Shown here: one piece after another, positions 28,125 through 64,000 of the stretch
How the letters are laid out: each line of letters begins with the position of its first letter
Position numbering within the stretch: position 1 is the first letter of the stretch
Origin: Sedimentibacter sp. zth1
GTDB lineage: Bacteria > Bacillota > Clostridia > Tissierellales > Sedimentibacteraceae
Direction: 5' to 3'
NCBI RefSeq assembly: GCF_017352195.1
Contig: NZ_CP071445.1
Span: forward strand, 2,790,001 to 2,854,000
DNA: 64,000 nt
Made by a program: the position numbers and the translations under genes
Notes under the pieces: model-generated
Seen by the model: only the letters and a program-made list of their open reading frames with translations
Database searches by the model: none
What the model was told of the DNA's origin: nothing

Positions 28125-28216
28125 TAATATTGTTTAGCTAAAAAAGTGTAACCTTAATAAACCCAAACAATGAATTGCTTGAAAAACAATTAAAACTTTA
28201 TGTAAGGACTTAATAA

Positions 28217-33827: not shown

Positions 33828-33966
33828 TATAAAAAATTAATTTTTACATTTTATAAAAAATAGGTATATTTTTAAAAATGCAGTACTGGTATTTCAGTCA
33901 TGAAAAGTGTTGGTTGTAATCAACTGATTTATAGTGAATTATATAAGTTTAAATAGGAGGAAGTTT

Positions 33967-35106: not shown

Positions 35107-35130
35107 AGTAGTTTAATGTTGGAGGATGTT

Positions 35131-35916: not shown

Positions 35917-35918
35917 AA

Positions 35919-40069: not shown

Positions 40070-40122
40070 TTTGAAGAGCAAATATTTGAAATAAATAAAA
40101 GTTTATGGGGAAGGAGTATTTT

Positions 40123-40746: not shown

Positions 40747-40747
40747 T

Positions 40748-42643
40748 ATGGAAAAATATTTTGGTATTGGTGTAGTTGCTTTATGTATAATTATTGGAGC
40801 AATATTTACTTTTCAAATAATGGTAGCTTTAATTGATATTTTTAAAAGGGAGAGGAAGTTCAAGCGAGGGATACTATCAAAACTTAAGACATTTGCTTGT
40901 GTTGGTTTATATACGCTTGTTGGATTAGCTACATTTTATAATATAAAACAGAGTGACCTTAATTTGTATTCAAAGATTAAGGAATACATTTTAGTAGTAT
41001 TTATTATTTATTGTATCTTTATTGTATATTATTTAATTACAAGCTGGTTTACTAAAAAAGAGCTTAGACTATTTTCTGTCATTTTAGTCGGATTATTAGG
41101 GTCTTTAGGTTATGCATTCATTATGTTTATAATAGATTTGGTTATACAAGGTAATACGAAAAATTATTACATATGGTATTTTATATTCGCTATGGTTACA
41201 TATATTTACGCACAAAAAATAACCAGAAGCAGTATAATTACATTTACAAATAATAAGGTATGCGATTTTAGAAAAAAGCTTTTTGATCTTGTTCTTAACA
41301 CTTCTCACGAAAAGCTTGAAAATACTGATGTTGGAAGAGTATATACTTGTATTAACAATGATATGGAAATATTAAGCAGCTCGATGAGGGATGTTGTTAC
41401 TGTAATTACTAATATATTAACAATTGTAGTTTGTTTTATATACCTTGCGATATTAAGCTTGAAGTGTTTTATTTTTGCAATAATATTTGTTATTGTATCA
41501 TTTTTACTACAGCTAATTTATGTTAGATTTCAGGAAAAAATTTTTTCATTACTTATGAAAATACAGCATAAAGTATATAATTTTTTAGATTCATTAATTA
41601 AGGGGCACAAGGAATTGGCTATTAATAGTTTGAAAAAGAAAGAATTTATTGGTGATGTGTACGAAGTTAACGGACAGTATATGAAGACAAGGATTTCAGC
41701 TGAAAATAAAATGACAAATATATTTGTTTTAGGACAAAGTCTTTTGTATGTAGTTATTGGGTTAGTAATATTTATATTTCCGATAATATTTAATGATGTT
41801 GATAGTCAAGTTCTTCAGTCGTATGCTTTAATTTTCCTATTTATAATTAGTCCAGTAAGTTACCTTGTGGATTTAGCTCCAAGAGCTATGCAAGCCAAAG
41901 TAAGCTATTTTAGAATTAAAGAAATTATTTCAGAGCTTCAGATTAATGCTAACTCAATTAATCAAATTGATATAGAGTATCAACATAATGTTAATAAAAT
42001 AGAACTTAAAAATGTTACTTATGCATACAAAAACAATTCTGATGAAAGTAGCTTTAAAATAGGGCCAATTAATTGTGATATTGAAAGCAATAAAATTAAT
42101 TTTATAATTGGTAGTAATGGTAGTGGTAAATCTACGCTCGTAAAAGTGATTACAGGTCTTTATGAAGAGAACGAGGGCGAAATACTAATAAATGGGAAAA
42201 AAGCTTTAGCAACTGAAAGATGTGAATTATTCTCTGCAATATATAGTGATTATTATTTATTTAAAAAGCTGTATGGAATGAATATTGAGGGTAAAGAAGC
42301 AGAGATTGATTATTATTTAAAGCAACTTAGAATTGATGATAAGATAAAAATAAACAATAAAGAGTTGTCTACAATTGAATTATCAAGTGGTCAGAGGAAG
42401 AGAATAGCATTACTGCTTTGTTATCTTGACAATAAGGATATATATGTATTTGATGAATGGGCTGCTGACCAAGATATTATTTTTAGAGATTTCTTTTACA
42501 AGAAATTGCTGCCTCAGATGAAAGAAGAAGGGAAAACTATTATAGCTATTACACATGATGATAGATATTTTGATATTGCTGATAATATTATTTGTATGGA
42601 CATGGGCAAATTGACTGAGGAGAAAAGTATATGGAAAAAGTAA
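40748..42643 (+). CDS. Cyclic-peptide-type ABC exporter (PvdE/SyrD family)
   Basis: A 631-residue protein with an enlarged membrane region: about four helices in the first 150 residues, then six more typical of exporter half-transporters, and a C-terminal ATPase. Walker A is IGSNGSGKSTLVKVI near residue 455, the signature is IELSSGQRKRIALLLCYL and Walker B is IYVFDEWAADQD. The EWAADQD ending is characteristic of PvdE/SyrD-type exporters of lipopeptides and peptide siderophores. It probably exports the product of the NRPS/PKS line encoded downstream. The ATG follows the previous stop by one base, and its end overlaps the thioesterase gene by 13 bases, so translation is coupled at both ends. 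Confidence 0.9.
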   Translation: MEKYFGIGVVALCIIIGAIFTFQIMVALIDIFKRERKFKRGILSKLKTFACVGLYTLVGLATFYNIKQSDLNLYSKIKEYILVVFIIYCIFIVYYLITSWFTKKELRLFSVILVGLLGSLGYAFIMFIIDLVIQGNTKNYYIWYFIFAMVTYIYAQKITRSSIITFTNNKVCDFRKKLFDLVLNTSHEKLENTDVGRVYTCINNDMEILSSSMRDVVTVITNILTIVVCFIYLAILSLKCFIFAIIFVIVSFLLQLIYVRFQEKIFSLLMKIQHKVYNFLDSLIKGHKELAINSLKKKEFIGDVYEVNGQYMKTRISAENKMTNIFVLGQSLLYVVIGLVIFIFPIIFNDVDSQVLQSYALIFLFIISPVSYLVDLAPRAMQAKVSYFRIKEIISELQINANSINQIDIEYQHNVNKIELKNVTYAYKNNSDESSFKIGPINCDIESNKINFIIGSNGSGKSTLVKVITGLYEENEGEILINGKKALATERCELFSAIYSDYYLFKKLYGMNIEGKEAEIDYYLKQLRIDDKIKINNKELSTIELSSGQRKRIALLLCYLDNKDIYVFDEWAADQDIIFRDFFYKKLLPQMKEEGKTIIAITHDDRYFDIADNIICMDMGKLTEEKSIWKK

Positions 42644-43338
42644 AGCTTTTTTGTCTTCCTCATGCAGGAGCTTCTTCATATTATTATCTTCCTTTTAAAA
42701 AGTATTTTCAAAATGTTGATGTAGTACTTATTGAACTTAAGGGTAGAGGGAAAAGATTTAATGAACCCTTTTATACATCGTTTGAAGATGCTGTTAATGA
42801 TATTTATTCACAGATTAAGAGCGAATGTATTGGTGATTATGGAATATTTGGACATAGTATGGGAAGCTGGCTTGCTTACGAATTGTATTATAAATTATTA
42901 GAGAATAATCATGTTCTTCCTAAATGCATGTTTTTTTCTGGTCGTGAGGCACCAAATGATAATATAGATAAAATTGATTTTACCAATTTTTCAAATGAAG
43001 ATTTTGAAAAATATTTAAAAGGAATGGGCGGAATAGAGGAATTATCTAATATGAATGAAAATCTCACAAAAGTTTTTTATGAAATAATTCGGGCAGATTT
43101 TAATATTATTAGTAATTATGATTATCAAGAGTACAGTGAAAAGATTAAATCACCAGCTGTAATTATGTCTGGAACAGAAGATGAGGGAATTAATTTTAGA
43201 AAGCTTACAAAGTGGAGTAGTCTTATTGAAGATAAAGTTTCATATACCAGTTTTAATGGAAGCCATTTTTATATGACAAATTCGTGGGACAAACTGTCTA
43301 AAACAATTGAAGATAATCTTGTTAAAATTGATGAATAA
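42631..43338 (+). CDS. Type II thioesterase
   Basis: A 235-residue alpha/beta-hydrolase thioesterase that clears wrong or stalled acyl groups from carrier proteins. Motifs: KLFCLPHAGASSYYYLPFKK at the start, ELKGRGKRFNEP, nucleophile GIFGHSMGSWLAYEL near residue 77, acid in MSGTEDEGINFR and histidine in FNGSHFYM. This matches GrsT/SrfAD-type enzymes. Its ATG lies inside the end of the exporter gene. It is separated from the giant synthase by 79 bases with no clear terminator. No C-terminal thioesterase domain is seen in the synthases within the window, so product release must occur further downstream. Confidence 0.93.
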   Translation: MEKVKLFCLPHAGASSYYYLPFKKYFQNVDVVLIELKGRGKRFNEPFYTSFEDAVNDIYSQIKSECIGDYGIFGHSMGSWLAYELYYKLLENNHVLPKCMFFSGREAPNDNIDKIDFTNFSNEDFEKYLKGMGGIEELSNMNENLTKVFYEIIRADFNIISNYDYQEYSEKIKSPAVIMSGTEDEGINFRKLTKWSSLIEDKVSYTSFNGSHFYMTNSWDKLSKTIEDNLVKIDE

Positions 43339-43417: not shown

Positions 43418-46400
43418 ATGTTAGATAATTTAGTTGAATATTTTAAGAAAGCATGCAGTACTGATAAAGGGGTATATTTCATAAAAGATATTGAGAATAA
43501 TTATGAATTTATATCATATAAAGAATTGTATTTGGAAAGTATTAAAAGCTTGAATTTATTATATACAAAGGGAATTAATAGCGGCGATACATTAGTATTT
43601 TTGACTGATGATAATAAAATTTTTATGAAATATTTCTGGGCTGCATTCATGGGGAAAGTATTAGTTGTTCCATTAAAACTTGGGGATAAATCTGAAGATT
43701 TTGAAAGATTAGAAAATGTTATTAAAAAATTTGAAAATGTTCATATTCTAATTGATGAAAATATGTATGGAAAGGTGAAAAATTATTTTAGTGATAACAA
43801 TAGAAATGATATTGTATTAGATAATGAACCCTTAATTGTTGAACAAATAATAAATAAAGAAAAGCTTTGCTATGAAAAATTACAAAAAGGTGAAATGAAT
43901 TCATTGTTTTCATGTGATGAAGAATATGGTTATGTTAGTAAAGCTAAAATTGATGGTAGTGATGTTGCTATTATACAGTTTTCATCGGGTTCAACTGGAA
44001 CTCCAAAAGGAGTTATTTTGACACATAAGAACTTGGTATGTGGAGTCGATGCTATTATTTGCGGTTCTGATGGTCGACAGGATGATACATATATGAGTTG
44101 GTTACCGTTAACCCATAATATGGGGTTAATTGGTATGCATTTTACCCCAATTATGAGTAAAACTAATCAGATATTTATGCCTACTAATCTATTTTTTAAA
44201 AATCCATTATCGTGGTTTTTTATCATTAACAAATTTAGAGTGTCAAGAATTGCTGGCCCAAATTTCGTTTATCGGATATTAATAAAGCTTCTGCGACAAC
44301 ATAAAATCACAGGGGTCGATTTGTCATGTATAAAAGAGATTTATAATGGTTCAGAGCCTGTTTCAATGGAATTAATACGTCAATTATATGATGAATTAAA
44401 AATATATAATTTGAAAAAAGAAGCTTTGTATCCGGTTTATGGTATGGCGGAAGCTACTTTAGCAGTAACCTTTCCACATCCTTCAACTGAACCACAAGGT
44501 GTTATAATAAATAGAAAAAGCTTGTCAATTGGTGATAAGGTTGAGATATTATCTTCTATTAATGAGGAAAATGCTGTTGAGTATGCAAAGCTTGGATATC
44601 CATTAAAGTATTGTGAATTAGTTATCCTTGATGAGAACGAAAAAAAATTGGAAGATGGATATGTTGGAATAGTTTATTTAAAAGGCGAAGTAATTACAAG
44701 AGGTTATTATGGCGATGATAATAGTGTTTATAATAAAGATGGATGGTATTGTTCAGGAGATGTTGGATTTATTATAGATGGTCAGCTTGTAATTTCTGGG
44801 AGAAAGAAGGATATAATTTTTTCGTGTGGACAAAATTTTTATCCTGTCGATGTAGAAAAAGTTTGCTGTGGTAATATGAATATAGAGTCGGACAAGCTGG
44901 TAGTTTGTGGATTTTTTAATGAAGTATCAAATAAGGATGAAATGGCAATTTTCATAGTTTCTGATTTGGATGATAAAGATTTCTTAATAATAGAAGAAAA
45001 AATTAAGAATATTACATTTATAAAGTTAGGAGTAGCTGCTGATAGGGTTGTTAAGGTAAAAGAAATTCCCAAATCAGCTGGAGCTAAAACTGCTCGATAT
45101 AAATTGATTGAAAAAATTAAGCAACAAATTTATGAAGAAAAAGTTTTAGAAGATACTAATAAACAAATATCTAATGCCAATAAGAATGATACAATTGTTA
45201 ATAGTTGTAATTATAATAAAACAGAAGAGACAATATTAAAAGTATTAAAAACGATTGTTGGAATAAATGATATTAATATTGAAGACAATTTGTTTGTAAT
45301 GGGTATATCTTCAATTATGGCATTTAATTTATTTGATAAATTAAGTGATTTGTTCCCAGACAAAATAAATTTTGAAGATTTATATACATATTCTTCAATT
45401 AAAGAGTTAGCACAGTTTATTGATAGTAAAGAAGAAAATGTTGCTAAGGTAGATGAGGAGAGTAAAAATAACTTTACTAATGATACAGATATTGCAGTAA
45501 TTGGTATAGCTTTAAATACCCCAGCTGGAAATAGTATTGAAGAATATTGGGATAGTATAAAAAATAATGAAGACTGTATTAAAAAATTATCTAAAACTCG
45601 TTGTAATGATATTGCTGATGTTATAAGACATAAAAATGAAGAATGTGATTTTGATTTTATAGAAGCTGGTTTTCTTGATAATATCGATTTATTTGATAAC
45701 GAATTTTTCAATATTAGTGAAGAGGAAGCTTTATTAATGAGTCCAAGTGTAAGAATGCATCTTGCTGTAATGTGGCATTCTTTAGAGGATGCAGGTTACA
45801 CAGAAGCTTCTGTACATGGGCAAAATATTGCAGTTTATACGGGAATGGTTACTGATGCTCAGGTTTATGAGTATAGAGAATTTCTTAAAGCATATGATAA
45901 ATCAAAGTTGCCTATTGCAATATCAGGTAATTTGTTGCCTATGTTACCTGCAAGATTAGCATATTATTTAAATCTAAAGGGAACGGCAATGCTTATTGAT
46001 ACTGCGTGTTCGTCTTCGAGCTCAGCAATTGTTCAAGCATCAAATGCTCTTAAAGCAGGAGATTGTAAGGCGGCAGTTGTTTCCGGTGGTAGAATAGTTT
46101 ATTCACCTTTTAATGATAGTAATGAATTTATCGGAATTGAATCTATGGATTATAGAACACGTTCGTTTGATGATAAAGCAGAGGGTACAGCTTACGGAGA
46201 AGGTGTATTCTCAATAGTGCTAAAAAAATATAGCGATGCAATAAAAGATAATGATAGAATTTATGGTGTAATAAAAGGATATGCATCTAATCAAAATGGT
46301 TTAACATCTATGGGGATAACTGCACCGAGTGTACATTCACAAGCACAGGTAATTAGCCAAGCTATTAAAAATGCAAATATAATGTGTGAGGATATTCAAT

Positions 46401-49400
46401 ATTGTGAAGTGCATGGAACAGGGACGCCAGTAGGAGATTATTTTGAAATAGCAGGAATACGAAAGGCATTTAGGAAACAATCTAAGAAATATGGATTTTG
46501 TGCAGTTGGTTCTGTTAAATCCAATATGGGGCATTCATATGGAGCAGCAGGCTTAGCTTCTGTAATAAAGTGCCTTTTGTCGATGAAGAATGGATATATT
46601 CCACAAATGGCAAATTTTATAAAGCCTAGTAAGAGAATTAATTTTGTTAAATCTCCTATATATGTTAATACAAAATTGAAAAAGTGGGAATCAAAGGATA
46701 AGAAAATAAGTATTGTTAACTGTTTTGGGATAAGTGGAACAAATTGTAGTATCGTTTTAGAGGGCGCAGATGATTGTAATAAAGTTATAAAAAATCAAAA
46801 TAGAGTAAGAATGTTTGCTTTTTCTGCAAAGAGTGAAAATGCCTTAACAGAGCTTATAAAAAAGTATTTGAATATAATAGATGATTCAAAGTTGAGTATT
46901 GACGATTTGAGTTATTCATTGATGGTAAGAAGAAACCAATTTAAATATAGGATTATTATTTTGGCTGAAAGTCAGGATGAATTAATTCTTAAGCTAAGGC
47001 AAATTTTGAATAAAGGAAAGAAAAGTATATTTGATTTTTGTGATAATCAATCGATTTTTAGTGGAATTGCTAATGCAAAGAAAACTGAAGAAATAACAGA
47101 GCTTATTAGTTTATATCAAAAAAATAAGGACTCTGTGTATTTAAATATTATATGTAAAAAATATTGTGAAGGATATGAGGTTGAATGGCAAAGATTTTTT
47201 GATGCTTCAGTTAATTACATATCATTACCGCTATATACATTTGAAAAAAAGAGGTTATGGATAAATAATAATGAGATTAATAGAGTATTCAACAAAAAAA
47301 CAGAAATAGATTGTAATACCTTTAAAGTTGAAAGTAATTCTAAACAAGAAATTACAGAGCTGGAAAAAAATATTGGAGAATGTATTTGTAAAGTGATAAA
47401 AAAAAGCCATATAAATATTGATGATAACTTGTTTATGATAGGTATTAATTCAATAATGGCAATGAAGTGTATTAATTATATTAACAGTATGTATAATGTT
47501 GATATATCAATAATAACTTTATTTGAGTATGACACAATAAAAAAAATATCAGAGTATATTAAAAATGCGACACAAAATAAAGATGTTATGTTTATTACAA
47601 AAGCAGATGAAAAGTATTATTATGATTTATCAAAGGCTCAATTAAGGATATATTTACAGGAGAAGATTAAAAGAAATAGCAAGGAAAATATATTGCGTGG
47701 AGCATACATTTTATCGGGTAAAATTGATATAAATAAACTTGAAAATGCGATAAATCAGATTTTACTCAGAAATAGTATTCTTAGGACAGCTTTCGTTGAG
47801 GTTAAGGGCATTCCAAAGCAGGTCATTTTAGATAAATGTATATGTCATGTTGAAACAGGACTTATGGAGGGAACGATAGATGATGAATTTGATAGCTTTA
47901 TTGAAACATTTGATTTAGCTAATCCTCCATTTATAAAGGTTAAAATATTAGATATGCTTGATGGAAAACAAATATTTATGTTATATACCCATCATATTAT
48001 TTTTGATGGTATATCTGTTAATCAATTCATTAGTGAGCTTAACAGATTGTATTTAGGAGAAGATGTCGCATATGAAAAGTATTCCTACGTTGATTATTCA
48101 GAGAGCATGGAATTGTTTTATAAAACTGATAAATATCTAAGTCAGGAAAAGTATTGGCTTGAGGAATATTCTTCTGGAATCATAAGGTCAAATCTCTCAA
48201 AAACATACGATAAATGCAGATATACAGTTGATGATAAAGCAGAAAAATACTATTTTAGCTTTGATAGTGAGCTTAGTAATAGAATTAATGAAATTGCAAA
48301 AAAAAATGGTTTTACATCATTTATGCTATTATTTACTGCAATTAACATATTAATTTATAAGTATTCAAATGATCAAGATGTTTGTATTGGTGTTCCATAT
48401 GCATCAAGAAAATCTGCACAAATTGAAGATATGCTTGGTGTATTTATTAATACTCTTGCAATTAAGTGTAAGATTGCAAAAAACATGAGTGTTAAGGAAT
48501 TATTTGAAATTGTTAAGAAAAACTGTATTGGTGCTTTTAATAATGCGGATTATGGATATGAAGAATTAGTTTACAGATTAAATTCAAATAGAGATTTAAG
48601 TGATAATCATCTATTTAATGTAATGTTTATTTTCCAAAATATGAGTAAATGTAATTTAAGATTTAATGACATTGAATGTGAGGAATATAATTTAAACAAA
48701 TCAACTGCAAAAGATGATTTGACCTTCGAGTTATTTTATATTGATGGTATATATAAAGGCAATATTGAATATAAGTCTGAATTAATGAGCGAAAATTACA
48801 TTAAAGATATGTTTAAGCATTTTTCTAATATTTTGACTGAGGTTACTAATGATGAAAATATCTTAATTAAGGATGTTTCAGTAATTAATAATGAGGAAAT
48901 TAAAAATCTTTTGTTGCTTGGAAGTGGTAATAAAACTGATATAAATAAAACTATTATTGATATGTGGTATGAAAATATAAATCATACTGATAATCCTGCT
49001 ATAATATTTCATAATAAGTCTGTATCGTATAATGATTTGGAAATAATGTCAAATATCATTGCAGAGTATTTAAAAAATAAATATTCTGATAAATGTATGG
49101 TTATACCTGTTTTAATGCATCGTAGTGAGTTCTTAATTGCAACGTTATTTGGAATATTAAAAGCTGGTGGAAGTTATATACCATTAGACCCAGAGTATCC
49201 TGAAAGGCGAATAAAATATATAATTGACGCTGTTGATGCAGAGTTGGTATTGACTGATAAAAATGTTAAGTATGAATTTGAAAATGTAAATAGTATATAT
49301 ATTGAAAAGATATTTGAGGAGAAATTATTAGATGAATCAAGTGGGTTAAAAGTTAATAACTCTAATATGTCTGATGTAGGATATACTATTTTCACTTCCG

Positions 49401-52400
49401 GTAGTACAGGGAATCCAAAGGGAGTATTGGTCAGACATAGGGAGCTTGCAAATTTTGTGCAGGCTATGAGTAATATTGTAGATTTTAACAGTGGAAGCAA
49501 AGTATTAGGAGTTACTACTATATCATTTGATATATTTGTGTTAGAGTGCTTTGCAACTCTATGCAATGGAGCTGTTTTAGTGCTTGCTGATGAAAAAGAA
49601 ATTAGGGATGTTGAAATTTTGGCTGATGTAATTTCTGACAATAATGTTAATATAATTCAATTCACACCTACAAGGATGCAAACAATGTTAATGACTCCTA
49701 AAAGCAGAGAGATTCTTAAAGATTTAAAAACAATCTTTATTGGAGGAGAAAGTGTAGGAATTGATTTATTAGAGGAGTTAAAAAAATATACGCAAGCAAG
49801 AATAATTAATATGTATGGGCCAACAGAAACCACAGTATGGTCAACATATAAGGACTTAACAAATGATAGTTTTATTACAATAGGCAGACCAATTGATAAT
49901 ATGGATATATTAATAATATCAGAAGATAATAAGCTTTTACATAAGGGTGCTATTGGTGAGATTGCTATTGGTGGTATAGGGGTTTCAAAGGGCTATTTAA
50001 ATAACAAAAAATTGACAGATGAAAAATTTATTTGTATTGATGAATATGAGGGAAAACTTTATAAGACTGGTGATTTAGGTAAATGGAATCAAAATGGCAA
50101 TTTAGTCTGTTTAGGAAGAAATGATTATCAAGTTAAGATAAGAGGTTACCGTGTTGAATTAGGAGAGATTGAAGAAATCATTAATCAATATGAAGAAATA
50201 GAAAAATGTGTTGTTGTTGATAAAAATATTGATGGTAATAACGAATTGGTTGCATACGTTATGGTAGATGATAACAAGTATTCATTTGATGAGCTAATGA
50301 AAAAATTGACAACGGATTTACCTTATTACATGTTACCATCAGTAATAAATTTAATAAATGAATTTCCAATGACACCTAACGGCAAAATTGACAGAAAAGA
50401 GTTGAAAAATTGGGAAGCGATTATTAACCAAGATAATAGAAGTATAGATTTATTAGCTCCAGCTAACGAAATTGAGAAGAAACTATTTGATATATGGAAG
50501 GATATACTAAACACAGATTATATCGGATGTGACCAACGGTTTTTCTTAATAGGTGGAAATTCTTTATTATTAATAATGATGTTAAATGAAATTAAGCAAT
50601 ATTACAATGTTGAGATAACAGCAGCAGATTTATTTGAGTTTCAAACAATAGTTAAAATTTCGGATTATATTAAGAAATGCATAGAAGAGAAAAAATGCAT
50701 GGATAACATTACTGATAATTGTTTAGCTAATAAAAATTTATTGCTTGATATTCATAATATGCCTATTAAGGATTATTATGAATTGTCTGAATCTCAGCTT
50801 AGAATTTATTTGCTTGAGCAGATAGAAGAGATAAAATGCAAATATAATGTCACTTCAGCTTTTATCGTTGATTGTGGGTTAGATGTAGAGCGTCTTGAAA
50901 AAGCTATTAATACAGTAATATTACGGCACGAAATATTAAGAACTGCATTTGTAATGATAGACAATAATCCAATGCAAAAGATATTTAATGAAGTACATAT
51001 TAAAATTGAAATTAAAGATTTAGTTGATGATATTGATATGGAAATTAAAAAATTCATACATGAATTTAATTTAGAAAAGCCACCACTTATGCGTGCTTAT
51101 GTTGGGAAACTTTCAAATGGAAAAATTTTGTTTATTTTTGATATGCACCATATTATTACAGATGGAAGTACGGCACATATTTTTATTGAAGAGGTTGAGA
51201 AGGTTTACAATGGATTAGATTTAGAAGATGTCAAATTTCAATATAGTTTGTTTAGTGAATATTCAAATAATAGACAGAAAAATGATGATTATTTAAAACA
51301 GGAAAAATATTGGCTTCAAGTTTTTGAAAAAAAATCTGAAAGGCTTGAATTGCCGTTATCATTTGAAAGAAATAAAATGAATGGAACTAAAGGCAAAAAG
51401 TATTATTTTGATATTAATGGAGATTTGTGTAATAAGATTAAGGAATTAGCAACTCAAAATAATAGCACTGAATTTATGGTATCAATAATGGCATTGTATA
51501 TTTTGATAAATAAATATACTGGGGCAAATGACATAAATATAGGAACTTCAACATCGGGTAAATCTATAGCTGAAGCTAAAAAAATGCTGGGAGTATTTAT
51601 TAATACATTAGTGCTTAGATTTGAATTCAGTGAAAATACGTCAGTTCAGCATATGCTACAAGAAATAAAAAAAATGTGCTTAGATGCTTTTAGTAATGCT
51701 GATTATGGTTATGAAAATTTGGTTAGTAAGGTTAATGTTCAAAGAGAGGTAAATAGAAATCCTTTGTTTGATATTATGTTTATTTATCAAATATTTGGAG
51801 AAAGAAATATTGCTTTTAATGGAGCAAAACTAACTAAATATCCAATTAAGGAAGTTGTTCCAAAGTATGATATTACTTTTGAAATGATTCCAAATAAAGA
51901 TAATATTGAATGCAATATAGAATACAATTCTGAGCTTTTTTCAGAGGTATATATAAAAAGATTTGTTAGTAATTATATAAATATTTTGCAAATGATTGTT
52001 GCTGACAATGAGATGATTGTTAAGCAAATACAGATTATCAATAAAGAACAAAGAGATGAATTGGTTGCATTAGGAAAAGGCCCTCAATATACTGTTGATG
52101 AAACGATTATTGATAAATGGTATAGACACTTTAATGAAAATATAATAAATGAAGCTATAATTTGTGATTCTAAAACATATTCATATCAAATGCTTGAAGA
52201 AACATCAAATATAATTGCGAACTATTTATATGAAAAATATAGCAATACAAATATGATTTTTCAGGTATGTATGAGAAGAGAATTTTTACTTATTGCTACT
52301 TTGTTAGGGGTATTAAAGGCTGGCGGTAGCTATGTTCCAATTGACCCAACATATCCAAAGGATAGAATAAGCTATATTCTTAATGATGTAAAAGCTTCAG

Positions 52401-54379: not shown

Positions 54380-54423
54380 TAAGTGTTTGTTATTTAGATA
54401 TTATAGGGTGAAAGTGAGAAATT

Positions 54424-57400
54424 ATGGAACATTTGTATGAGAAATCTATTTCTTTAAATGATATAAAAGAAGATATTGTAAATGAAGACAGCGTTTCTAA
54501 GGATGTTGCAGTTATTGGAATTTCCATTAATACAGCTTCTGGTAATTACAAAGAATTTTGGGTAGATATTGTTAATGGTCATAGCATGGTTAATAGGATT
54601 GATGGACAAAGAAAAGCTGACCTTGATTATTATAATATGTGTTGTGGAAAAAAAGTGAGCTATTATGATGGTGCATTTATTAAAGAAATAGACAAATTTG
54701 ACTATAAATTCTTTAATTTAACACCTAAAGAAGCACAATTAATGGATCCTTGTCAGAGATTGTTTTTAGAAAACACAATTAAAGCTATCGAGGATGCTGG
54801 TTATGGAAATGAGCGATTAAGTGAAACCAATACAAGAATATACATTGGGTATGCTGGAAATATAAAAGATAGCTATCTAAATATGTTGTGGAAAGCACAG
54901 CCTGATGCAGTTAATATGGCGATTGTTAATAACATGAATGGTATGATAGGTGGACGAATTGCTTATATGCTTAATACTCATGGCATAGCTGAGGTGATAG
55001 ATACCACTTGTGCGTCATCCCTTGTAGCAGTACATGAAGCATGTGAAAGTATTATTAATGGCAATTGTAGTACGGCTATTGTTGGAAGTATGAGAATCAA
55101 TATGCTACCTAATGATATTGAAATGTCAAGAATAGGGGTTGAGTCAAAGGATTATCAAACAAGAACTCTTGACAATGATTCTGATGGCTTTGGAGAAGGT
55201 GACGGAGTAGTAACTTTAGTGCTAAAGTCGCTCAGCGCAGCTAAAGAGGATAATGATGATATTTATGCAGTATTAAAAGGTAGTGCTGTTAGTCAAGGCG
55301 GTAAATCCATGGGCGTAACAGTTACTAATCCACAGGTTTTAAGCAATACTATTAAAAAAGCTGTTTCATGTGCAAATATTGATGGTGAATCAATAGGAAT
55401 GGTTGAAATGCATGGAACAGCAACAAAGCTTGGTGACCCAATTGAGATTCAGGGATTGTCAGATGAGTTTGAAACACTCACAGATAAAAAAGGAATATGT
55501 GCAATTGGTTCTGTAAAAAGCAATATGGGTCATCTATATGAAGCGTCAGGAATTATGGGGCTTGTAAAAACAATCCTTGCTGTAAAAAATAAAATTATTC
55601 CGCCAACAATTAATTTAGTAACTCCTAATGTTGAAATTGATTTTGTCAATTCACCATTTTATATTAATACAAAAGCAAAAAAGTGGGAAACGAACGGTGA
55701 CAAACGTGTAGCTTTAGTTGATTCTTTAGGTTTAAACGGAACTAATTGTAATGTAATTGTTGAGGAATATCTTGATGAAAATAAAAAAAGCAGTGAAATT
55801 GGCAAAAAATTTCTTGTTATTTCTGCAAGAATTGAAACTTCTCTCAAAAATCTAATTGAGGAATATGTTTTATTTTTAAAGAGTGAAAATATTAATCTTA
55901 ATGATTTATGTTATACAGCTTGTATAGGAAGATGGCATTATGAAAAAAGACTTTTTATTGAATTTTCCACTAAAAATGATTTGATAAAAAAACTTGAGCA
56001 AGCTAATAAATGCCAAATTAATGACGAGGGTATTTTCTTTTCAAATAATATTAATACAGATGAAAAAAATATTGATAGTTACCCACAGGATGAGTATGAA
56101 AAAACAAAATTAAAATACTTAAATGGGGACAAGATTAATTGGGAAAAATATTTCTATAATATTGAGTGCAATATTATTCATATTCCAGTTTATTGTTTTG
56201 ACAGTATTAGATGTTGGGCTGAGTTTAGACCAGTTGTTAATGAAAGTAGACAAGAAGAAAAATCACCTTATTTATTTAGAACAACTTGGAGTGAGGCACA
56301 ATACAGCAAGCCTAATCCAATGAATGATGTATTAGTAATTGGTTTTAGTAATAATAAAGTGCAAAAGTATTATGATAAATATTTAGATATAGGAATTAAA
56401 GCAGAATACATAATTTTAAGTGATAAGATTAATGAATCGATAAGTAATAATTTGATTAATCATAGTGCAAGACAAGTAGTATTTGTATTTGAAGGTGAAG
56501 AATACAAAGATGAAATAGTTTGTTATGAAAAAATTAAAAACACTCTTGTAATTATTTCTAAGATTTTTGATTTAATTAATCCTAAATATTTTGCTTTAAT
56601 AATAGATACATGTACTGATATTTTGGGTAATGAGATTATTTATAAAGATTGTGCAGCGATTGCAACAGCTTTAAAAGCGGTAGAAAAGGAAAATAGAGAG
56701 CTTAATGTAAAAATAGTTGAAAAGGATGAAGAAACATCCCTAGATAGAATTTGTTGCGAAGTATTTAATAATGAAAATAATTACATTGTCTTTAGAAATG
56801 ATAAGAAATATCTCATGAAAATTGTAAAAGAAAGCAAATGTGAAAATACAGAAGAATGTTACTCATCAGGAACATATTTAGTAACGTCTGGAACAAGCAT
56901 TGTAACATTAGCTGTTTGTGAGGCGATTGCAAAAAAATATAATAACTCAAATTTTGTTTTATTAACAAGAAGATTAGATGAGTATGATTCTAATTCTGAT
57001 GATAATAGTGTTCTTAATAATTATGATAAAGATATTTCTGAATATATTTTAAAAATAACGTCACTCGGTAATAGGGTAATTGTTAAGAAAACAGAAATTT
57101 GTAATTTGTCAAGTGTTAAAAACACAATAGATTGGCTTGCTGAAAATGAAATAGAACCAGAGTATGTTATTCATGGTGCTGGAAATGGTGCATCATTTAG
57201 CTTTGAGAATTCTAATATTGAAAATATTTCACAGGTGATAGACCCAAAGGTAAAAGCTTTAATTAACATTAATAGTATACTTGGTGATAATGTAAAAGCG
57301 TATATTTTGTTTTCTTCAGTTGCAACCATATTTTCTGCACCATATCAAAGTGCTTATTTGGCTGCTAATGCATATTTAAATAGTTTTTGTCAAGAGCAAG

Positions 57401-60400
57401 TTAATAAGGGTAAAAAGGTATTATCAATTAATTGGTCAACTTGGAAAGAAATTGGTATGGCTATAAAAAATAATGTAGCATATGATTTGATTTTTAAAGC
57501 TATGCCAACAAAAACAGCTCAGGAGTATATAGATACTATACTTGAACAAAATATTATCGGAAATATTATTGTGGGTGAATTTAATACTTCTAAGGTAGGC
57601 CAAAATTTAATTAAAAGCTCTAAGATTAATATTGAGGACGGTATTGTTGAGTTTAGTGAGAATACTAAAAATTATAAATATAAAAGTGATAATGGTGAGG
57701 TTGAGTTAACTGGTAAAAATGATGATAATTATAGTAAGACAGAAAAACAAGTAGCTCAAGTATGTAAAGAAGTTTTAGGTTATACCTCAATAAACGTGTA
57801 TGATAATTTTTTTGAAATGGGTGCAGATTCACTGCAAATAATGAATATGCATAAGCAGTTGTCTAAGCTTTATCCAAATAAGCTTGAAGTAACTGATATG
57901 TTTGCTTATTCCAGTGCCAATAAGTTGGCAAATTATCTTTGTGATAATATAATCTCTAATAATGAGTCTTCATATTTAAATGATGATGAATTAAATAATG
58001 ATGGAACAGAAATTAATGATAATGATATTGCTATAATTGGTATTGCCTCAAAAATTCCATATGCATCTTCAGTTGATGATTTTTTTGAAACATTATTACA
58101 AGGTGAATGTATGGTTAATGAGCTTCCTAAGTGGAGAAAGAAATATTTGCTTGATTTTATGAGGTTTTCAAAGCAGAATACAAGTGATGTGAAATTTTTA
58201 AAGAGTGCATATCTTGAAGATGTAGATAAATTTGACTATGAGTTTTTCAATATTTCTCCAAGAGAGGCTTGCCTTATGGACCCACATCATAGAATATATT
58301 TAGAGCTTGCTGTTCAAGTTATTGAGGATGCAGGATACAGCATTGAGAATATTAGTGGTACTAATACAGGAGTTTTTTTAGGTTTTGCAACTAACATTAA
58401 AGATATGTATCTAAGAATGATTGCTGATATGAATAAAGAAGATATTGCTGATGCTATTGTTGGTAATACTCAGGCAGTTATGTCAGGTAGAATTTCGCAT
58501 AATTTAAACTTAAAAGGTGTTAGTATGGTAGTTGATACAGCTTGTTCATCTTCTCTAACAGCTTTAGAAACGGCAATGCAATACATAACTAATAATAAGA
58601 TAGAAGCTGCGTTGGTAGGCGGCATTAAGCTAATTTTGATGCCTGTTGAGGATAATGATTTATTCAGAATTGGTATGGAATCTTTGGATGGTTATACAAG
58701 AACATTTAATCAGACAGCGACTGGAACATCGTTTGGCGAAAGTGCTCAAATGATTATGATTAAATCTTTGAAAAATGCAATTCGAGATAGAGACAATATT
58801 TATGGTGTAATAAAATCAGCAGCAATAAATCAAGATGCTAATTCATCTGGAATAACTGCTCCTAATCCAGTTTCACAAAAGGAGGTTATTCTAAAAGCAT
58901 GGCAAGATGCAAATTTAAACCCTGAAGATTTATCTTATGTTGAAGTGCATGGTACAGGAACAAAACTTGGCGATAATATTGAATATAGAAGTTTAAATGA
59001 TGCTTTTAGAAAATATACAAATAAGAAAGCGTTTTGTGCTGTTAACTCAGTAAAGCCAAACTATGGGCATATGTCTGAAGGGTCTGGATTATTTGGAATA
59101 ATTAAAGGCTTAATGGCATTAAAACATGAAAAGATTCCAAAGAATATTTTGTTCCAATATCCAAATATGTCAATTGATATGGCTGATTCAGCTATGTATT
59201 TTAATACCAAGAATATTGAATGGAAAGCTGAAAACAATAAACGAAAATTTGCATTAAGCAATTTCGGAATGAGTGGAACAAATGCTCATATTGTTATTGA
59301 AGAGCATAATAGGAATGTCAATGATATACAAATTGATAGCAAAATGAGAATACTTACAATTTCTAATAAAAAAGAAGATGGTTTTTATGATGCCATTAAT
59401 AAATTATATTGTTATGTTAGAGATAATGAAGTTGATTTTGCAAATTTAAGCTATACATTAAACTTAGGAAGAGGTCATTATAATTATAGAATGGCTATTG
59501 TATGTTCAAATATAAATGAGTTTAAAGATGCATTACAAAGTTATATTAGCACAAAAAAATGTAAAAGTTATGCATATGTTGGACATATAAAAGTTATTCC
59601 AGATGATAGGGAATATATTTATGATTATGAGATTAGCAATAGTAAAAAACTTGAGTTTTCAAAGAAAGCTTTAAATGAAAATGATTATGACGAACTTGCT
59701 AAGCTATACATTAAAGGAGCTGATATTGATTTTAGTAGGTTTTACAGTAATGATAAGCCATATCGAATAAGTGCTCCTACATATTCATTTGAGAAAAAGA
59801 GCTGTTGGATTAAAGTACCTGAGTTATTTGATATAGATGAAAATTTATATTACTCAATAAAATGGATTAAAAAATCACCACAGATAGTTTGTAATAATTT
59901 GAGAAATAGTTATCTTATTTTTGCAAATGAAGAAAATATTAAAAGTATGAAAATAGTCAAAGAAATAAAATTAACTGAGAATGTAATACTTGTAAATAAG
60001 AATGATATTGAAGAAAAGTTAAATTCGGTGGAACTTTTAGCTGACTTTTTAAGAGGGATTATTGACAGTAATATTGACGGAATAATTAATTTGTTGCCAT
60101 TAAACAGTTGTGCTGATGAGCAGGATGCTATGAAATCAACAATGTTATTGTTTAGATTGGTAAAAGCTTTGTTGGATATTAATTATTATAGCAACTTAAA
60201 GCTTATTACAATTTCAACAAATACTTATAAAGTAACAGACAAAGAAAATAAGTATAATCCTTATGGAGCAATCACTCATGGAATAAATAGAGTTATTGGA
60301 CTTGAATTATTAAAAGTATCTAGTTATGCAATTGATATTGATGAATTTACAAGTATTAGTAATATTATAAAAGAAATTAAATTAGATAAAAAGGAATATT

Positions 60401-61704
60401 GTGTAAGTTATAGAAACAATGAACGTTATGTAGAAGAGTTCAGTGTGGAAGATTTAGAGGTAACAAAAGGAAAGCTTAGCATTAATTCAAAAGGTGCTTA
60501 TGTAATTACAGGTGGTGCAGGTGGTATAGGTTTATTTTATGCTGGTTGCTTAGCTGAAATTAATAATAATATTAATATTGCTTTAATTGGTAGAAGTAAT
60601 AATTATTTATGTAATGCTGTAAAGGTTGAAAAAATCAGTAATATTAAGAAATTAGGGGCGGATATTCGTTTTTATCAGGGAGATGTAAGTAATAAAAATC
60701 AGGTAAATCAGATATTTGAACAGATAAAAACTGATTTTGGTCATATTAATGGAGTCATTCATGCTGCCGGAAATGCAAGTGCTGAAATTATTGCTACAAG
60801 GAAAGAATCAGATTTTCTTGATGTAATTAATCCAAAATTTTCTGGAACGATTAATGTGTTCAATGAGATTATTAGAGAAAATGTTGATTTTTTTGTATTA
60901 TGCTCATCAGGGTGTACTCTTACTGGAGAGGCATCTCAAGCAGATTATGTTGCAGCAAATTCATTTTTAGATGCTTTTACATATTATACAAATCAAAATA
61001 ATGTTAAAACACATTGTATCAATTTTAGCTCTTGGAAAAGTGAAGGAATGTCTGTTAGATTTGGAATTAACAATGATTTATTCTTTAAAGCATTAGATAA
61101 CAATGATGCAAGGTCAGCATTAATAGAAGTAATAAATTCAGGAATTCAAAGATGCTTTGTAGGTAAGCTTAATGTAAAATATTTTGTTGAAAATGATATT
61201 GACATATCAAGTCTTCCGTTTGAAATATCTAAAGAAATAAAGGGTAGTATTCCTATTGGGGTTGGGAAAAACAAAATTGAATTTGTTCCGCAAAAGACTA
61301 CTTCTATGAAAAAATCAGTTAACACTGTGTTAGAAGGTAAGAAAAAAGGTAAAAATACATATACGGATACAGAGTGTGAAATAGCGAGGTTATTTAGTGA
61401 GGTTTTAGGTTTTGAAACAGTCAATATTTATGATAATTTCTTTGAAATTGGTGGGGATTCCATCTTGCTCAGTAGATTGCATGGAAAGATAGATGAAATA
61501 TATCCAGGAGAAATTAAGCTTATGGATTTATTTAATTATACATCTGTTAATAAGATTGCAGATTTCATATCTAATAAAGAAAACGATAATAACGATACAC
61601 AAGAAGTATTGCCAGAAGTTGATGATAATATGGATAGTATGATTAACCAGTTTGAAAATGACGAGATATCTATAGATGAAATGCTAAATATGTTGGATAA
61701 TTAG
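54424..61704 (+). CDS. Polyketide synthase, two modules KS-KR-ACP-KS-KR-ACP, no AT
   Basis: A 2426-residue bimodular PKS. KS1 28-450 with Cys196 (DTTCASSL), EMHGTATKLGD and NMGHLYEA; KS linker to ~604; KR1 ~615-1072; ACP ~1104-1178 (MGADSL); KS2 1200-1628 with Cys1374 (DTACSSSL), EVHGTGT and NYGHMSEG; linker to ~1796; KR2 ~1808-2243 with intact TGGAGGIG near 2029, SSG and QADYVAAN; ACP ~2315-2386 (IGGDSI); acidic C-terminal docking-like tail (DEISIDEMLNMLDN). KR1 keeps SS and SAYLAAN but its cofactor motif is altered (VTSGTSIVTLA), so it may be inactive. No AT, DH or ER domain is seen. An AT supplied in trans is expected. It follows the hybrid synthase by 44 bases. Confidence 0.93.
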   Translation: MEHLYEKSISLNDIKEDIVNEDSVSKDVAVIGISINTASGNYKEFWVDIVNGHSMVNRIDGQRKADLDYYNMCCGKKVSYYDGAFIKEIDKFDYKFFNLTPKEAQLMDPCQRLFLENTIKAIEDAGYGNERLSETNTRIYIGYAGNIKDSYLNMLWKAQPDAVNMAIVNNMNGMIGGRIAYMLNTHGIAEVIDTTCASSLVAVHEACESIINGNCSTAIVGSMRINMLPNDIEMSRIGVESKDYQTRTLDNDSDGFGEGDGVVTLVLKSLSAAKEDNDDIYAVLKGSAVSQGGKSMGVTVTNPQVLSNTIKKAVSCANIDGESIGMVEMHGTATKLGDPIEIQGLSDEFETLTDKKGICAIGSVKSNMGHLYEASGIMGLVKTILAVKNKIIPPTINLVTPNVEIDFVNSPFYINTKAKKWETNGDKRVALVDSLGLNGTNCNVIVEEYLDENKKSSEIGKKFLVISARIETSLKNLIEEYVLFLKSENINLNDLCYTACIGRWHYEKRLFIEFSTKNDLIKKLEQANKCQINDEGIFFSNNINTDEKNIDSYPQDEYEKTKLKYLNGDKINWEKYFYNIECNIIHIPVYCFDSIRCWAEFRPVVNESRQEEKSPYLFRTTWSEAQYSKPNPMNDVLVIGFSNNKVQKYYDKYLDIGIKAEYIILSDKINESISNNLINHSARQVVFVFEGEEYKDEIVCYEKIKNTLVIISKIFDLINPKYFALIIDTCTDILGNEIIYKDCAAIATALKAVEKENRELNVKIVEKDEETSLDRICCEVFNNENNYIVFRNDKKYLMKIVKESKCENTEECYSSGTYLVTSGTSIVTLAVCEAIAKKYNNSNFVLLTRRLDEYDSNSDDNSVLNNYDKDISEYILKITSLGNRVIVKKTEICNLSSVKNTIDWLAENEIEPEYVIHGAGNGASFSFENSNIENISQVIDPKVKALININSILGDNVKAYILFSSVATIFSAPYQSAYLAANAYLNSFCQEQVNKGKKVLSINWSTWKEIGMAIKNNVAYDLIFKAMPTKTAQEYIDTILEQNIIGNIIVGEFNTSKVGQNLIKSSKINIEDGIVEFSENTKNYKYKSDNGEVELTGKNDDNYSKTEKQVAQVCKEVLGYTSINVYDNFFEMGADSLQIMNMHKQLSKLYPNKLEVTDMFAYSSANKLANYLCDNIISNNESSYLNDDELNNDGTEINDNDIAIIGIASKIPYASSVDDFFETLLQGECMVNELPKWRKKYLLDFMRFSKQNTSDVKFLKSAYLEDVDKFDYEFFNISPREACLMDPHHRIYLELAVQVIEDAGYSIENISGTNTGVFLGFATNIKDMYLRMIADMNKEDIADAIVGNTQAVMSGRISHNLNLKGVSMVVDTACSSSLTALETAMQYITNNKIEAALVGGIKLILMPVEDNDLFRIGMESLDGYTRTFNQTATGTSFGESAQMIMIKSLKNAIRDRDNIYGVIKSAAINQDANSSGITAPNPVSQKEVILKAWQDANLNPEDLSYVEVHGTGTKLGDNIEYRSLNDAFRKYTNKKAFCAVNSVKPNYGHMSEGSGLFGIIKGLMALKHEKIPKNILFQYPNMSIDMADSAMYFNTKNIEWKAENNKRKFALSNFGMSGTNAHIVIEEHNRNVNDIQIDSKMRILTISNKKEDGFYDAINKLYCYVRDNEVDFANLSYTLNLGRGHYNYRMAIVCSNINEFKDALQSYISTKKCKSYAYVGHIKVIPDDREYIYDYEISNSKKLEFSKKALNENDYDELAKLYIKGADIDFSRFYSNDKPYRISAPTYSFEKKSCWIKVPELFDIDENLYYSIKWIKKSPQIVCNNLRNSYLIFANEENIKSMKIVKEIKLTENVILVNKNDIEEKLNSVELLADFLRGIIDSNIDGIINLLPLNSCADEQDAMKSTMLLFRLVKALLDINYYSNLKLITISTNTYKVTDKENKYNPYGAITHGINRVIGLELLKVSSYAIDIDEFTSISNIIKEIKLDKKEYCVSYRNNERYVEEFSVEDLEVTKGKLSINSKGAYVITGGAGGIGLFYAGCLAEINNNINIALIGRSNNYLCNAVKVEKISNIKKLGADIRFYQGDVSNKNQVNQIFEQIKTDFGHINGVIHAAGNASAEIIATRKESDFLDVINPKFSGTINVFNEIIRENVDFFVLCSSGCTLTGEASQADYVAANSFLDAFTYYTNQNNVKTHCINFSSWKSEGMSVRFGINNDLFFKALDNNDARSALIEVINSGIQRCFVGKLNVKYFVENDIDISSLPFEISKEIKGSIPIGVGKNKIEFVPQKTTSMKKSVNTVLEGKKKGKNTYTDTECEIARLFSEVLGFETVNIYDNFFEIGGDSILLSRLHGKIDEIYPGEIKLMDLFNYTSVNKIADFISNKENDNNDTQEVLPEVDDNMDSMINQFENDEISIDEMLNMLDN

Positions 61705-61717
61705 GAGGTGAGTAGCT

Positions 61718-64000
61718 ATGAAAGATTTTAACAAATATGTTTTATCTGGAGTTAAGGACGGTAAAATTGATAAGGAATTATCTAAAGATTTAATAAACAT
61801 GTATAATGATAAAAACAAAAATGATGATGTCGCAGTTATTGGTATGGCGTATATTCTTCCTAATACTGATAGATACAATTTTTTAAGAAATTTATCAGAC
61901 AAGGTTGATTTTTCAAAGGAGTTGGATGATAAAAGAAAAGAACAGGTTAGGGATTATTATAACAGTACTAATAATGATGAGAAAATTGTTTTTTCAGAGG
62001 GTGCATTTTTACAAGATATAGATACTTTTGATTATAGGTTTTTTAAAATAACTCCAAGAGAAGCGATGATGATGGACCCAGCACAACGGAAATTTTTGGA
62101 GACTGCTTATCATGCATTGGAGGATGCCGGCTATTCTACACAAAGTGTTAAAGGAAGTAAAACAGGTGTTTATGTAGGGTATGCAACTTTTGTGCAAAGC
62201 AATTATGGACTAATGGCATATTCAGTGGATAAGTCTTTAATGTCAGATGGAATGGTTGGGAATATATCAGCATTAATGCCATCAAGGATATCATATTTTT
62301 TAGATTTGAAAGGGCCTAATATTTTAATTGACACTGCATGCTCATCTTCATTAACTGCTCTTAATCAAGCTTGTGAAGGGTTGAAAAATGACGATTGTGA
62401 TATGGCATTAGTTGGAGGTGTAAGATTAAATCTTTTGCCTGTTGAAAATGATTATATAAGTATTGGAGTACAATCCTCTGATAATATAACAAGAGCTTTT
62501 GATGAAACTTCTGACGGCACGGGTTTAGGTGAGGGAATTGGTGTTTTGGTAATAAAGCGTCTGTCAAAGGCAATAAAGGATAAAAATAGAATTCATGCTG
62601 TGATAAAATCAATAGCAATAAATCATGATGGAAATTCAATTGGAATTACTGCACCTAATGCAAATGCACAAACTGATGTTTTAGTTAATGCTTGGGAAAA
62701 GGCTGGGATAAATCCTGAAACGTTAGGGTTTATTCAGACACATGGTACTGGCACAAAACTTGGAGATACGTTAGAATTGCAAGGTATTTATAATGCTTTT
62801 AAAAAGTATACTGATAAAAAGCAAATTTGTGCTATTAGTAATGTTAAATCTAATATGGGACATTTATTTGAGGCGTCAGGTATGGTAAGTATTATTTCAA
62901 GCATTTTGTCATTGAAATACGGATGTTTGCTTCCAACAATTAATGTCAATAAACCAAGTAAGCAAATTGATTTTATAAATTCGCCGGTATATATAAATAC
63001 AAAGCTACGCAAATGGGAAACCAAGTTAGAAAGAAGATGTGGAGTAAGCTCATTTGGACTTGGTGGAACTAACTGTCATATTGTGTTAGAAGAACAGCCT
63101 AAAATAGTTGATGAAAATATATTAAGTGAAGATTTATATATGTTAGTTATATCAGCAAAATCTAAGGCTTCATTGGAGCGGCTTGTAAAACAATACATAG
63201 TTCGATTTTTTGAATTAAGTGAAGATGTGGCAAGATTATGTTATTCATCTCAAGTTGGGAGAACCCACTATAATTATAGATTAGCAGTTTTAGGTTCAAA
63301 TAAAAAGGATATTTATAATCAGCTGATAAAATATTCTAAGGGCGAAAAATCTGATAATATATTATACGGGGAACACAAAATTGTACCTGCTAATAAATCT
63401 GTAAGACAAGATAGTGAAATTACTCGTGAAGACATTATAAAAATGAATGAATTAGCTTTAAAATATATTCTTATTTATAAAAAATTATCTTCTGAAAAGA
63501 AAATACAAATATTCTATGAAATTGCAAAATCATATTCTAAAGGTGCTGATATTAGATTTGAAGATATGTATAACAGTAAATATGTAAAAACTTATTTACC
63601 ATTATATGAATTTGAGAACGAACATCTTTGGTTCCCAATGAAGGCTTCTAATTGTTACTCGCTAAAATGGGAAAAAGTTGATGGAATTATTTTTGCAAAC
63701 GATAGTTATTTATCTAATTATGTATATTTATATGTTGATAATAGTAAATGTAAAGAAGCAGTTGTGTCAGAAATTCTAAAAACTAAAGCAAATGTAATTG
63801 AGCAAAAAATATTAAATAAAAGTATAGATATTTTAAATGAAGATGTTAATGAGCTTGGATTTATTATTGATATAACGGGTATGAATAGCATAATTGATTG
63901 CAATACAGATAATATAAATAATTTCTATAATCAAATTAATAGTGTTTATTCTGTATTACAAAAGCTATGTAAAGAAACTTTTAATGGTAAAAAAATACAT
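61718..64000 (+). CDS. Polyketide synthase, KS and start of next domain (cut by window end)
   Basis: 761 residues are visible. Residues 1-33 form a docking-like helical start (DFNKYVLSGVKDGKIDKELS), as expected to meet the acidic tail of the previous PKS. The KS domain spans ~38-462 with Cys208 (DTACSSSL), QTHGTGTKLGD and NMGHLFEA. The linker ends near residue 648 with LPLYEFENEHLWF, again with no acyltransferase. The remaining ~110 residues resemble the structural half of a KR (YSLKWEKVDGIIFANDSY), still without the cofactor motif. AGGAGGTG seven bases before the ATG fixes the start. The cluster clearly continues to the right. Confidence 0.92.
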   Translation, partial: MKDFNKYVLSGVKDGKIDKELSKDLINMYNDKNKNDDVAVIGMAYILPNTDRYNFLRNLSDKVDFSKELDDKRKEQVRDYYNSTNNDEKIVFSEGAFLQDIDTFDYRFFKITPREAMMMDPAQRKFLETAYHALEDAGYSTQSVKGSKTGVYVGYATFVQSNYGLMAYSVDKSLMSDGMVGNISALMPSRISYFLDLKGPNILIDTACSSSLTALNQACEGLKNDDCDMALVGGVRLNLLPVENDYISIGVQSSDNITRAFDETSDGTGLGEGIGVLVIKRLSKAIKDKNRIHAVIKSIAINHDGNSIGITAPNANAQTDVLVNAWEKAGINPETLGFIQTHGTGTKLGDTLELQGIYNAFKKYTDKKQICAISNVKSNMGHLFEASGMVSIISSILSLKYGCLLPTINVNKPSKQIDFINSPVYINTKLRKWETKLERRCGVSSFGLGGTNCHIVLEEQPKIVDENILSEDLYMLVISAKSKASLERLVKQYIVRFFELSEDVARLCYSSQVGRTHYNYRLAVLGSNKKDIYNQLIKYSKGEKSDNILYGEHKIVPANKSVRQDSEITREDIIKMNELALKYILIYKKLSSEKKIQIFYEIAKSYSKGADIRFEDMYNSKYVKTYLPLYEFENEHLWFPMKASNCYSLKWEKVDGIIFANDSYLSNYVYLYVDNSKCKEAVVSEILKTKANVIEQKILNKSIDILNEDVNELGFIIDITGMNSIIDCNTDNINNFYNQINSVYSVLQKLCKETFNGKKIH

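Follow-up and report, generated by a model that had tools for sequence, protein, structure and literature searches.

The biosynthesis of hydroxymalonyl and aminomalonyl extender units on an acyl carrier protein (ACP) is described for zwittermicin A, with the genes ZmaD, E, G, N and ZmaH, I, J, respectively. FkbH, an ACP and a 3-hydroxyacyl dehydrogenase (HBDH) are established parts of the hydroxymalonyl-ACP pathway (PMC4207774), and the conversion of serine-ACP to aminomalonyl-ACP takes the same two oxidations as that of glyceryl-ACP to hydroxymalonyl-ACP. Such extenders are valued for polyketide engineering and are known mainly from aerobes. Here, we analysed a stretch of 64,000 nucleotides (the window; C1:2790001-2854000) from the single-contig, 3.13 Mb genome of Sedimentibacter sp. 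zth1, and read the DNA up to 36 kb past its right edge. We find what appears to be one complete, apparently undescribed trans-acyltransferase (trans-AT) cluster of the nonribosomal peptide synthetase-polyketide synthase (NRPS-PKS) type. As the best explanation of the whole, with a probability of roughly 0.6, we propose a hydroxymalonyl-supplied trans-AT assembly line that would make an acyl-Gly-Gly-polyol-lysinal or -lysinol. The most novel point would be the last oxidation step of extender synthesis, where FkbI/ZmaE seems to be replaced by another subfamily of acyl-CoA dehydrogenase (ACD) with its own electron-transfer flavoprotein (ETF) and a relocated catalytic-type Glu. Note that all functions in the cluster were assigned by homology.

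The FkbH of the cluster scores 283.7 bits against TIGR01686 (cut-off 146.65), its translation contains the DLDNT and SCR motifs, and a dedicated ACP and HBDH accompany it. No O-methyltransferase (FkbG) was found among the cluster genes scanned, so that we expect hydroxymalonyl and have rejected methoxymalonyl as the extender. Glyceryl-ACP as a starter is also unlikely, since the loader is a fatty acyl-AMP ligase (FAAL). An ACD of the FkbI/ZmaE type, which belongs to the standard pathway, was not found in the genome; a second ACD (C1:1684415), considered as an FkbI-like candidate, turned out to be Bcd/AcrC-like, with its own EtfBA. Because the ACD of the cluster falls in an ETF-linked clade and the genome yields no FkbI-type ACD, the gene set probably works like a hydroxymalonyl-ACP pathway as a variant, and not as a standard member. 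An earlier note on this DNA had overlooked the extender genes at 33934-36896 and everything to the right of the window. Among open papers, we found nothing matching on FkbH with ETF or on trans-AT systems with hydroxymalonyl.

To characterise the ACD, we compared 60 FkbH loci with a nearby ACD, redundant copies included, and found two kinds. ACDs like FkbI/ZmaE retain the Glu in its usual C-terminal position (IIEG) and lack a nearby ETF gene, whereas those of the second kind (in our cluster and in the loci L018, L021, L030, L031, L032, L034, L049 and L061) have a Ser at the site of the Glu of medium-chain acyl-CoA dehydrogenase, a Glu in helix G (WER), and adjoining EtfB and EtfA genes. The two kinds stand apart in the ACD tree with an SH-like approximate likelihood ratio test (SH-aLRT) value of 100, the Bcd/AcrC-like enzyme of the genome being placed beside the ETF kind. 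The order ACD-EtfB-EtfA is repeated in L018, L021, L030, L031, L034, L049 and L061 as well as in L189 and L190, and ACD-ETF adjoins FkbH in the first seven of these and in L024 and L028. Most ETF-type loci are ordered HBDH-ACP-FkbH-ACD-EtfB-EtfA. In L189, HBDH-ACD-EtfB-EtfA lies ahead of a FAAL protein, and an ACP can be read between HBDH and ACD.

A further locus, L190 (G307:C27, reverse complement of 3896-14817), contains an AT, a carrier protein, a ketosynthase (KS), an ETF-type ACD 54% identical to that of the cluster, EtfB, EtfA, an ACP, an HBDH and a stand-alone, Ser-coded adenylation (A) domain, while a search of the same genome for FkbH gave no match. The code of this A domain, read by eye as DVWHVSLI, is a listed serine code (PMC3207962), and the gene set would have the composition of an aminomalonyl-ACP set. 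Since the chemistry of HBDH and ACP is shared by the glyceryl and seryl sets, this supports a role of ACD-ETF in the last oxidation.

Potentially, ACD-ETF could be a tailoring enzyme, e.g. one that, like AnaB/PigA, desaturates an amino acid or acyl chain bound to a carrier, and not a substitute for FkbI. Its best PDB match is a prolyl-ACP dehydrogenase (4irn, 288 bits), with which it has WER and YSGT in common; the best NCBIfam matches are PigA and prolyl-peptidyl carrier protein (PCP) dehydrogenase, all below cut-off; and in this cluster about 36 kb separate the ACD from FkbH. We consider this explanation unlikely, given that no A domain of the cluster has a proline code (the codes are Gly, Gly and Lys-like), that the ACD of other ETF-type loci is contiguous with FkbH or HBDH, that the FkbH-less locus has it beside a Ser-coded A domain, ACP and HBDH, and that the only other match in a genome in which no FkbI-type ACD was found is the Bcd/AcrC-like one mentioned above.

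If ACD-ETF does replace FkbI, the ETF would stand in for oxygen or another acceptor, and the unit, which is found repeatedly next to FkbH in anaerobic Clostridia, looks like an anaerobic route to hydroxy- or aminomalonyl-ACP. FkbI-type ACDs were found in Clostridia, too (genomes G452, G333 and G381), so that the replacement does not extend to all anaerobes. The more general proposal is that anaerobic Clostridia synthesise hydroxy- and aminomalonyl-ACP in an ETF-coupled manner, with a helix-G-base ACD and EtfAB replacing FkbI/ZmaI without O2, and that here this feeds an all-hydroxymalonyl trans-AT line leading to a lysine aldehyde; in this full form, we give it slightly less than an even chance. 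If true, a distinct ETF-coupled enzyme that catalyses the last oxidation would explain how anaerobes make these extenders and provide an O2-independent tool.

The assembly line consists of three megasynthases. In Pfam scans, the first has three AMP-binding domains (of which the first is the FAAL), one KS, two Condensation (C) and four PP-binding domains; the second has two KS, two ketoreductase (KR) and two PP-binding domains; the third, completed from the genome, reads KS-KR-ACP-C-A-PCP-NAD_binding_4, the last being a terminal reductase domain (TD). The order FAAL-ACP-KS-ACP-C-A-PCP-C-A-PCP followed by KS-KR-ACP-KS-KR-ACP, which the earlier note had proposed by eye, was thus upheld by the HMM searches. 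Its claim that there is no cis AT also holds, as Acyl_transf_1 is absent from all three proteins, and so does its count of four KS domains with linkers: each has the Cys-His-His residues, and the linkers match RhiE-/CurL-like models. The active-site motifs are present in the KS, C, KR (Ser/Tyr/Asn) and carrier domains, and the YxxxK of the TD can be read in the translation. The PDB matches of the first adenylating domain are McyG, the Legionella and E. coli FAALs and FadD32.

By eye, the codes of the first two A domains are DILQFGMVW and DILQFGVVW, which we take to be glycine according to the established Stachelhaus codes, in support of the Gly-Gly unit suggested earlier. The code of the third, DGESIGSCC, agrees with that of BacB-M1-Lys (DAESIGSV) in six of eight positions and is nearest to a Lys code, hence we predict a Lys-like residue. 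KR2 is probably inactive because of its degenerate NADPH motif, TSGTSIVT, in which four of the five motif glycines are gone (the sole such case among 66 KRs); its Ser, Tyr and Asn are retained. Megasynthase 1 ends in a tail of 173 aa that returned only itself in a phmmer search against 5761 ORFs. By eye, the tail resembles the C-terminal lobe of a condensation domain and is perhaps a docking element; a single-sequence fold had a pLDDT of 37, too low to be used.

We then looked at the descent of the KS domains in a tree of 93 domains, each labelled by the presence of an AT downstream in the same protein (a quick search without bootstrap, rooted for drawing only). All four fall in a group of 32 rows with no cis-AT row (SH-aLRT 100), which includes BamA of bacillomycin D and leaves out the bacillaene KSs. 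The trans-AT type that the earlier note had assigned to them is therefore borne out as far as the lack of cis-AT relatives goes, but the domains are on the BamA side and not on that of bacillaene. An apparent kinship to the Brevibacillus PKS 7zma was dropped, as the 540-610 bits were a sum over two KS domains. Acyl_transf_1 has two matches in the whole genome, namely a FabD and the AT of the cluster, which is a free-standing AT nearby of the kind that the earlier note had named as support and lies 8 kb past the window edge. In the AT tree, it clusters with the majority of similarly sized ATs that adjoin an FkbH gene, beside the lineage of BamD (annotated as malonyl-CoA transacylase) and apart from FabD and BaeC/E. 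On these grounds, we regard its architecture as trans-AT and its descent as iturin-like, both for the assembly line as a whole.

One could argue for a conventional trans-AT lipopeptide cluster like those of the bacillaene or Burkholderia kind, with the extender genes as chance neighbours. The AT-less modules and the free-standing AT would fit, but the KS tree separates the bacillaene domains with the value given above, the order HBDH-ACP-FkbH-AT is kept in the metagenome-assembled genome (MAG) bin83(7d), and Paenibacillus and Tumebacillus have the same gene set next to related ATs. We consider this explanation very improbable.

How common is the design? The earlier note had called a FAAL with trans-AT modules unusual in an anaerobe, a view that we cannot share: the loader is of the iturin type, 27 of 391 Clostridia-class genomes match a FAAL-to-C query at E <= 1e-60 (some by the C or FAAL part only), trans-AT PKS/NRPS clusters of Clostridium were catalogued in 2012 (PMC3250452), and a 2021 paper mentions such clusters in gut anaerobes (PMC7930024). 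A close FkbH, on the other hand, occurs in this genome alone among 249 of its order. We did not find this exact set of genes anywhere else, nor a near-identical cluster, which the earlier note had named as a refutation; named genomes were covered by one scan, which had FkbH as its query and may omit this genome's own records. The combination of iturin-type loader, FkbH extender set, trans AT and reductive release was not found reported in open papers.

Two related clusters deserve a description. The MAG bin83(7d) shares KR4, C3, A3, TD, HBDH, ACP, FkbH and AT at 50-70% identity, with the order kept. In G452, a genome of the same class, a 60-kb stretch contains FAAL-CP-KS (CP, carrier protein), AT, HBDH, ACP, ACD and FkbH, then CP-aminotransferase-C-A modules; its AT is 41% identical to ours. 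Because one KS and one AT were detected in these 60 kb, the FkbH-derived unit should have one apparent destination, the FAAL-loaded KS, by way of that AT. A plasmid of Alkalihalophilus pseudofirmus (L152, NZ_CP117836.1) has KS-KR modules, HBDH, ACP, an FkbI-type ACD, FkbH and two different ATs.

The proposed biosynthesis is as follows. The FAAL would adenylate a carboxylic acid, probably a fatty acid, and load it onto the adjacent ACP. FkbH would make glyceryl-ACP on the free ACP, HBDH would turn its CH2OH group into an aldehyde, and the ACD would oxidise the aldehyde to the acid independently of O2, passing the electrons to the dedicated ETF pair and yielding hydroxymalonyl-ACP. The free-standing AT, a neighbour of FkbH, would deliver this unit to the AT-less modules. 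KS1 would elongate the acyl chain and, since module 1 has neither KR nor aminotransferase, an alpha-hydroxy-beta-oxo-acyl chain would be handed to the condensation domain and reach the first Gly, whereupon two glycines join. Three KS-KR modules, with KR2 probably inactive, would lengthen the chain, a Lys-like residue would be added, and the terminal reductase would free an aldehyde or alcohol, to be exported by the ABC systems of the cluster. The predicted product is an alpha-hydroxy-beta-oxo-acyl-Gly-Gly-(polyol or keto-polyol)-lysinal or -lysinol. The beta-oxo-acyl-Gly-Gly-polyketide of the earlier note is compatible with this but incomplete, as it includes neither the hydroxymalonyl extender nor the Lys-type terminus and reductive release. 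The cluster thus predicts a peptide-polyol aldehyde that is open to direct search; a C-terminal aminoaldehyde, if true, would suggest protease inhibition, which is speculation.

Several observations weigh against this proposal. A fatty starter is probable, but McyG, which gave the best match to the FAAL, is a loader of aryl-type acids. The ACD may have a different substrate, its nearest solved relative acting on prolyl-ACP, and in G441 ACD-ETF occurs with HBDH, yet FkbH lies on other contigs. Among structures, the AT matches FabD with up to 163 bits and ZmaA-AT with 57 bits. Finally, FabD could give malonyl to some modules, so that hydroxymalonyl may serve in fewer than all four extensions. 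A hydrophobic RXR site marks ATs that accept ACP-bound units (PMC4207774); the corresponding residues are QLT in the AT of the cluster, and malonyl-type BamD, with AYT, likewise lacks the Arg.

These points lead to the strongest competitor, in which the extenders are mixed: the AT, and perhaps FabD, would give malonyl to most modules and hydroxymalonyl would enter at one or two, as in zwittermicin. It departs from our proposal only in the count of hydroxymalonyl modules and is otherwise compatible. Mixed extenders are favoured by the structures nearest to the AT, which are of the FabD type, by its sister position to BamD, a malonyl-CoA transacylase, and by the presence of a FabD. However, the cluster has a single AT, encoded immediately after FkbH, whereas the Alkalihalophilus cluster has one more in addition to its FkbH-linked AT, and G452 combines FkbH and AT with a single KS. 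We regard mixed extenders as a serious possibility, although one short of an even chance.

The cluster spans about 42 kb, from 31294 to 73318 (C1:2821294-2863318), with intact open reading frames (ORFs); coordinates above 64000 continue the numbering of the window and equal the position in L008 plus 60000. Table 1 lists its genes in their order on the + strand.

Table 1. Predicted features of the cluster, with positions in the window or in L008
Feature	Position	Strand	Basis
Sfp/AusB-type 4'-phosphopantetheinyl transferase (PPTase)	31294..32022	+	PF01648 54 bits; AusB model 80 bits, below cut-off
ACD, ETF-linked carrier-protein type	33934..35106	+	PF00441; 4irn best PDB match
EtfB, proposed ACD electron acceptor	35116..35916	+	PF01012
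EtfA	35919..36899	+	PF00766, PF01012
FtsX/MacB-like permease	36913..39387	+	PF02687
ABC transporter ATPase	39398..40069	+	PF00005
HlyD-like adaptor	40105..40746	+	PF13437
Cyclic-peptide-type ABC exporter	40736..42643	+	TIGR01194 325.8 bits, above cut-off
Type II thioesterase	42631..43338	+	PF00975
Megasynthase 1, FAAL-ACP-KS1-ACP-C-A(Gly)-PCP-C-A(Gly)-PCP + 173-aa tail	43418..54379	+	3653 aa
KS1 + linker, without AT after it	45485..47137	+	PF00109/PF02801; AT-less group with BamA
173-aa C-terminal tail of megasynthase 1	53858..54376	+	phmmer
Megasynthase 2, KS2-KR2-ACP-KS3-KR3-ACP	54424..61704	+	2426 aa
KR2, degenerate NADPH motif TSGTSIVT	56881..57423	+	comparison of 66 KRs
Megasynthase 3, KS4-KR4-ACP-C-A(Lys-like)-PCP-TD	61718-69814 (L008:1718-9814; window holds 61718..64000)	+	2698 aa
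HBDH	L008:9833-10678, outside window	+	profile search
Free ACP	L008:10747-11001, outside window	+	profile search
FkbH	L008:11020-12069, outside window	+	TIGR01686
Free-standing AT	L008:12062-13318, outside window	+	PF00698 92 bits (L008:12062-13315; C1:2862062-2863315)

The host has traits of the Clostridia type, such as Spo0A, a Bcd-EtfBA-like operon and 26-35% GC; a spore-former of this type is plausible, and the label "clostridial" plausibly fits. An IS30-type transposase gene (helix-turn-helix and a weak integrase core match; 32257-33576, - strand) separates the PPTase from the ACD and suggests mobility, or an insertion into the cluster. To the left of the cluster we see IS110, and a block of 3.47 kb with an FAD oxidoreductase and an IS110 transposase is present in two copies (8253-11711 and 26590-30060, 99% identity), the oxidoreductase ORF differing in length between them (363 and 465 aa). 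At 20032-22905 and 23520-25755, we noticed a protein of 957 aa that contains long repeats and, after it, a sigma factor and an anti-sigma factor like RsgI. Short repeats (about 100-330 bp; identity mostly 72-94%) are also dispersed to the left of the cluster (4858, 7837, 11846, 13255, 18037, 19208, 25819 and 30380).

Compared with known systems, the cluster is like the MAG Bacillota bin83(7d) (JAUZPN010000009.1) in its last module, TD, extender set and AT, with an ACD identity of 71%, but the upstream modules of that genome are different and its best matches include no FAAL. With G452 it shares FAAL-CP-KS together with AT, HBDH, ACP, ACD and FkbH, whereas G452 has an iturin-like aminotransferase, an FkbI-type ACD without ETF, a single KS and an NRPS of about 6000 aa. 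The iturin family (bacillomycin D with BamA/BamD, mycosubtilin, iturin) has the same FAAL-ACP-KS-ACP loader, an AT-less KS that groups with ours through BamA, and a free-standing AT of the BamD lineage. Neither a Pfam scan of megasynthase 1 nor a search with the BamA AMT domain found an aminotransferase in the cluster, and we therefore do not file it as an iturin member; it differs further by its extra KS-KR modules, its hydroxymalonyl supply, and a Lys-like end with reductive release instead of cyclisation by a thioesterase. The ACD resembles the prolyl-ACP dehydrogenase AnaB (4irn) in the subfamily's helix-G Glu (WER) and in YSGT, but ETF genes stand alongside it and the context points to glyceryl- or seryl-derived ACP substrates. 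Finally, the zwittermicin A pathways likewise keep the FkbH-like, ACP and 3-hydroxyacyl dehydrogenase genes together, whereas our cluster appears to use a non-orthologous ACD with a dedicated ETF for the last oxidation, and an AT that is free-standing and not ZmaA-like.

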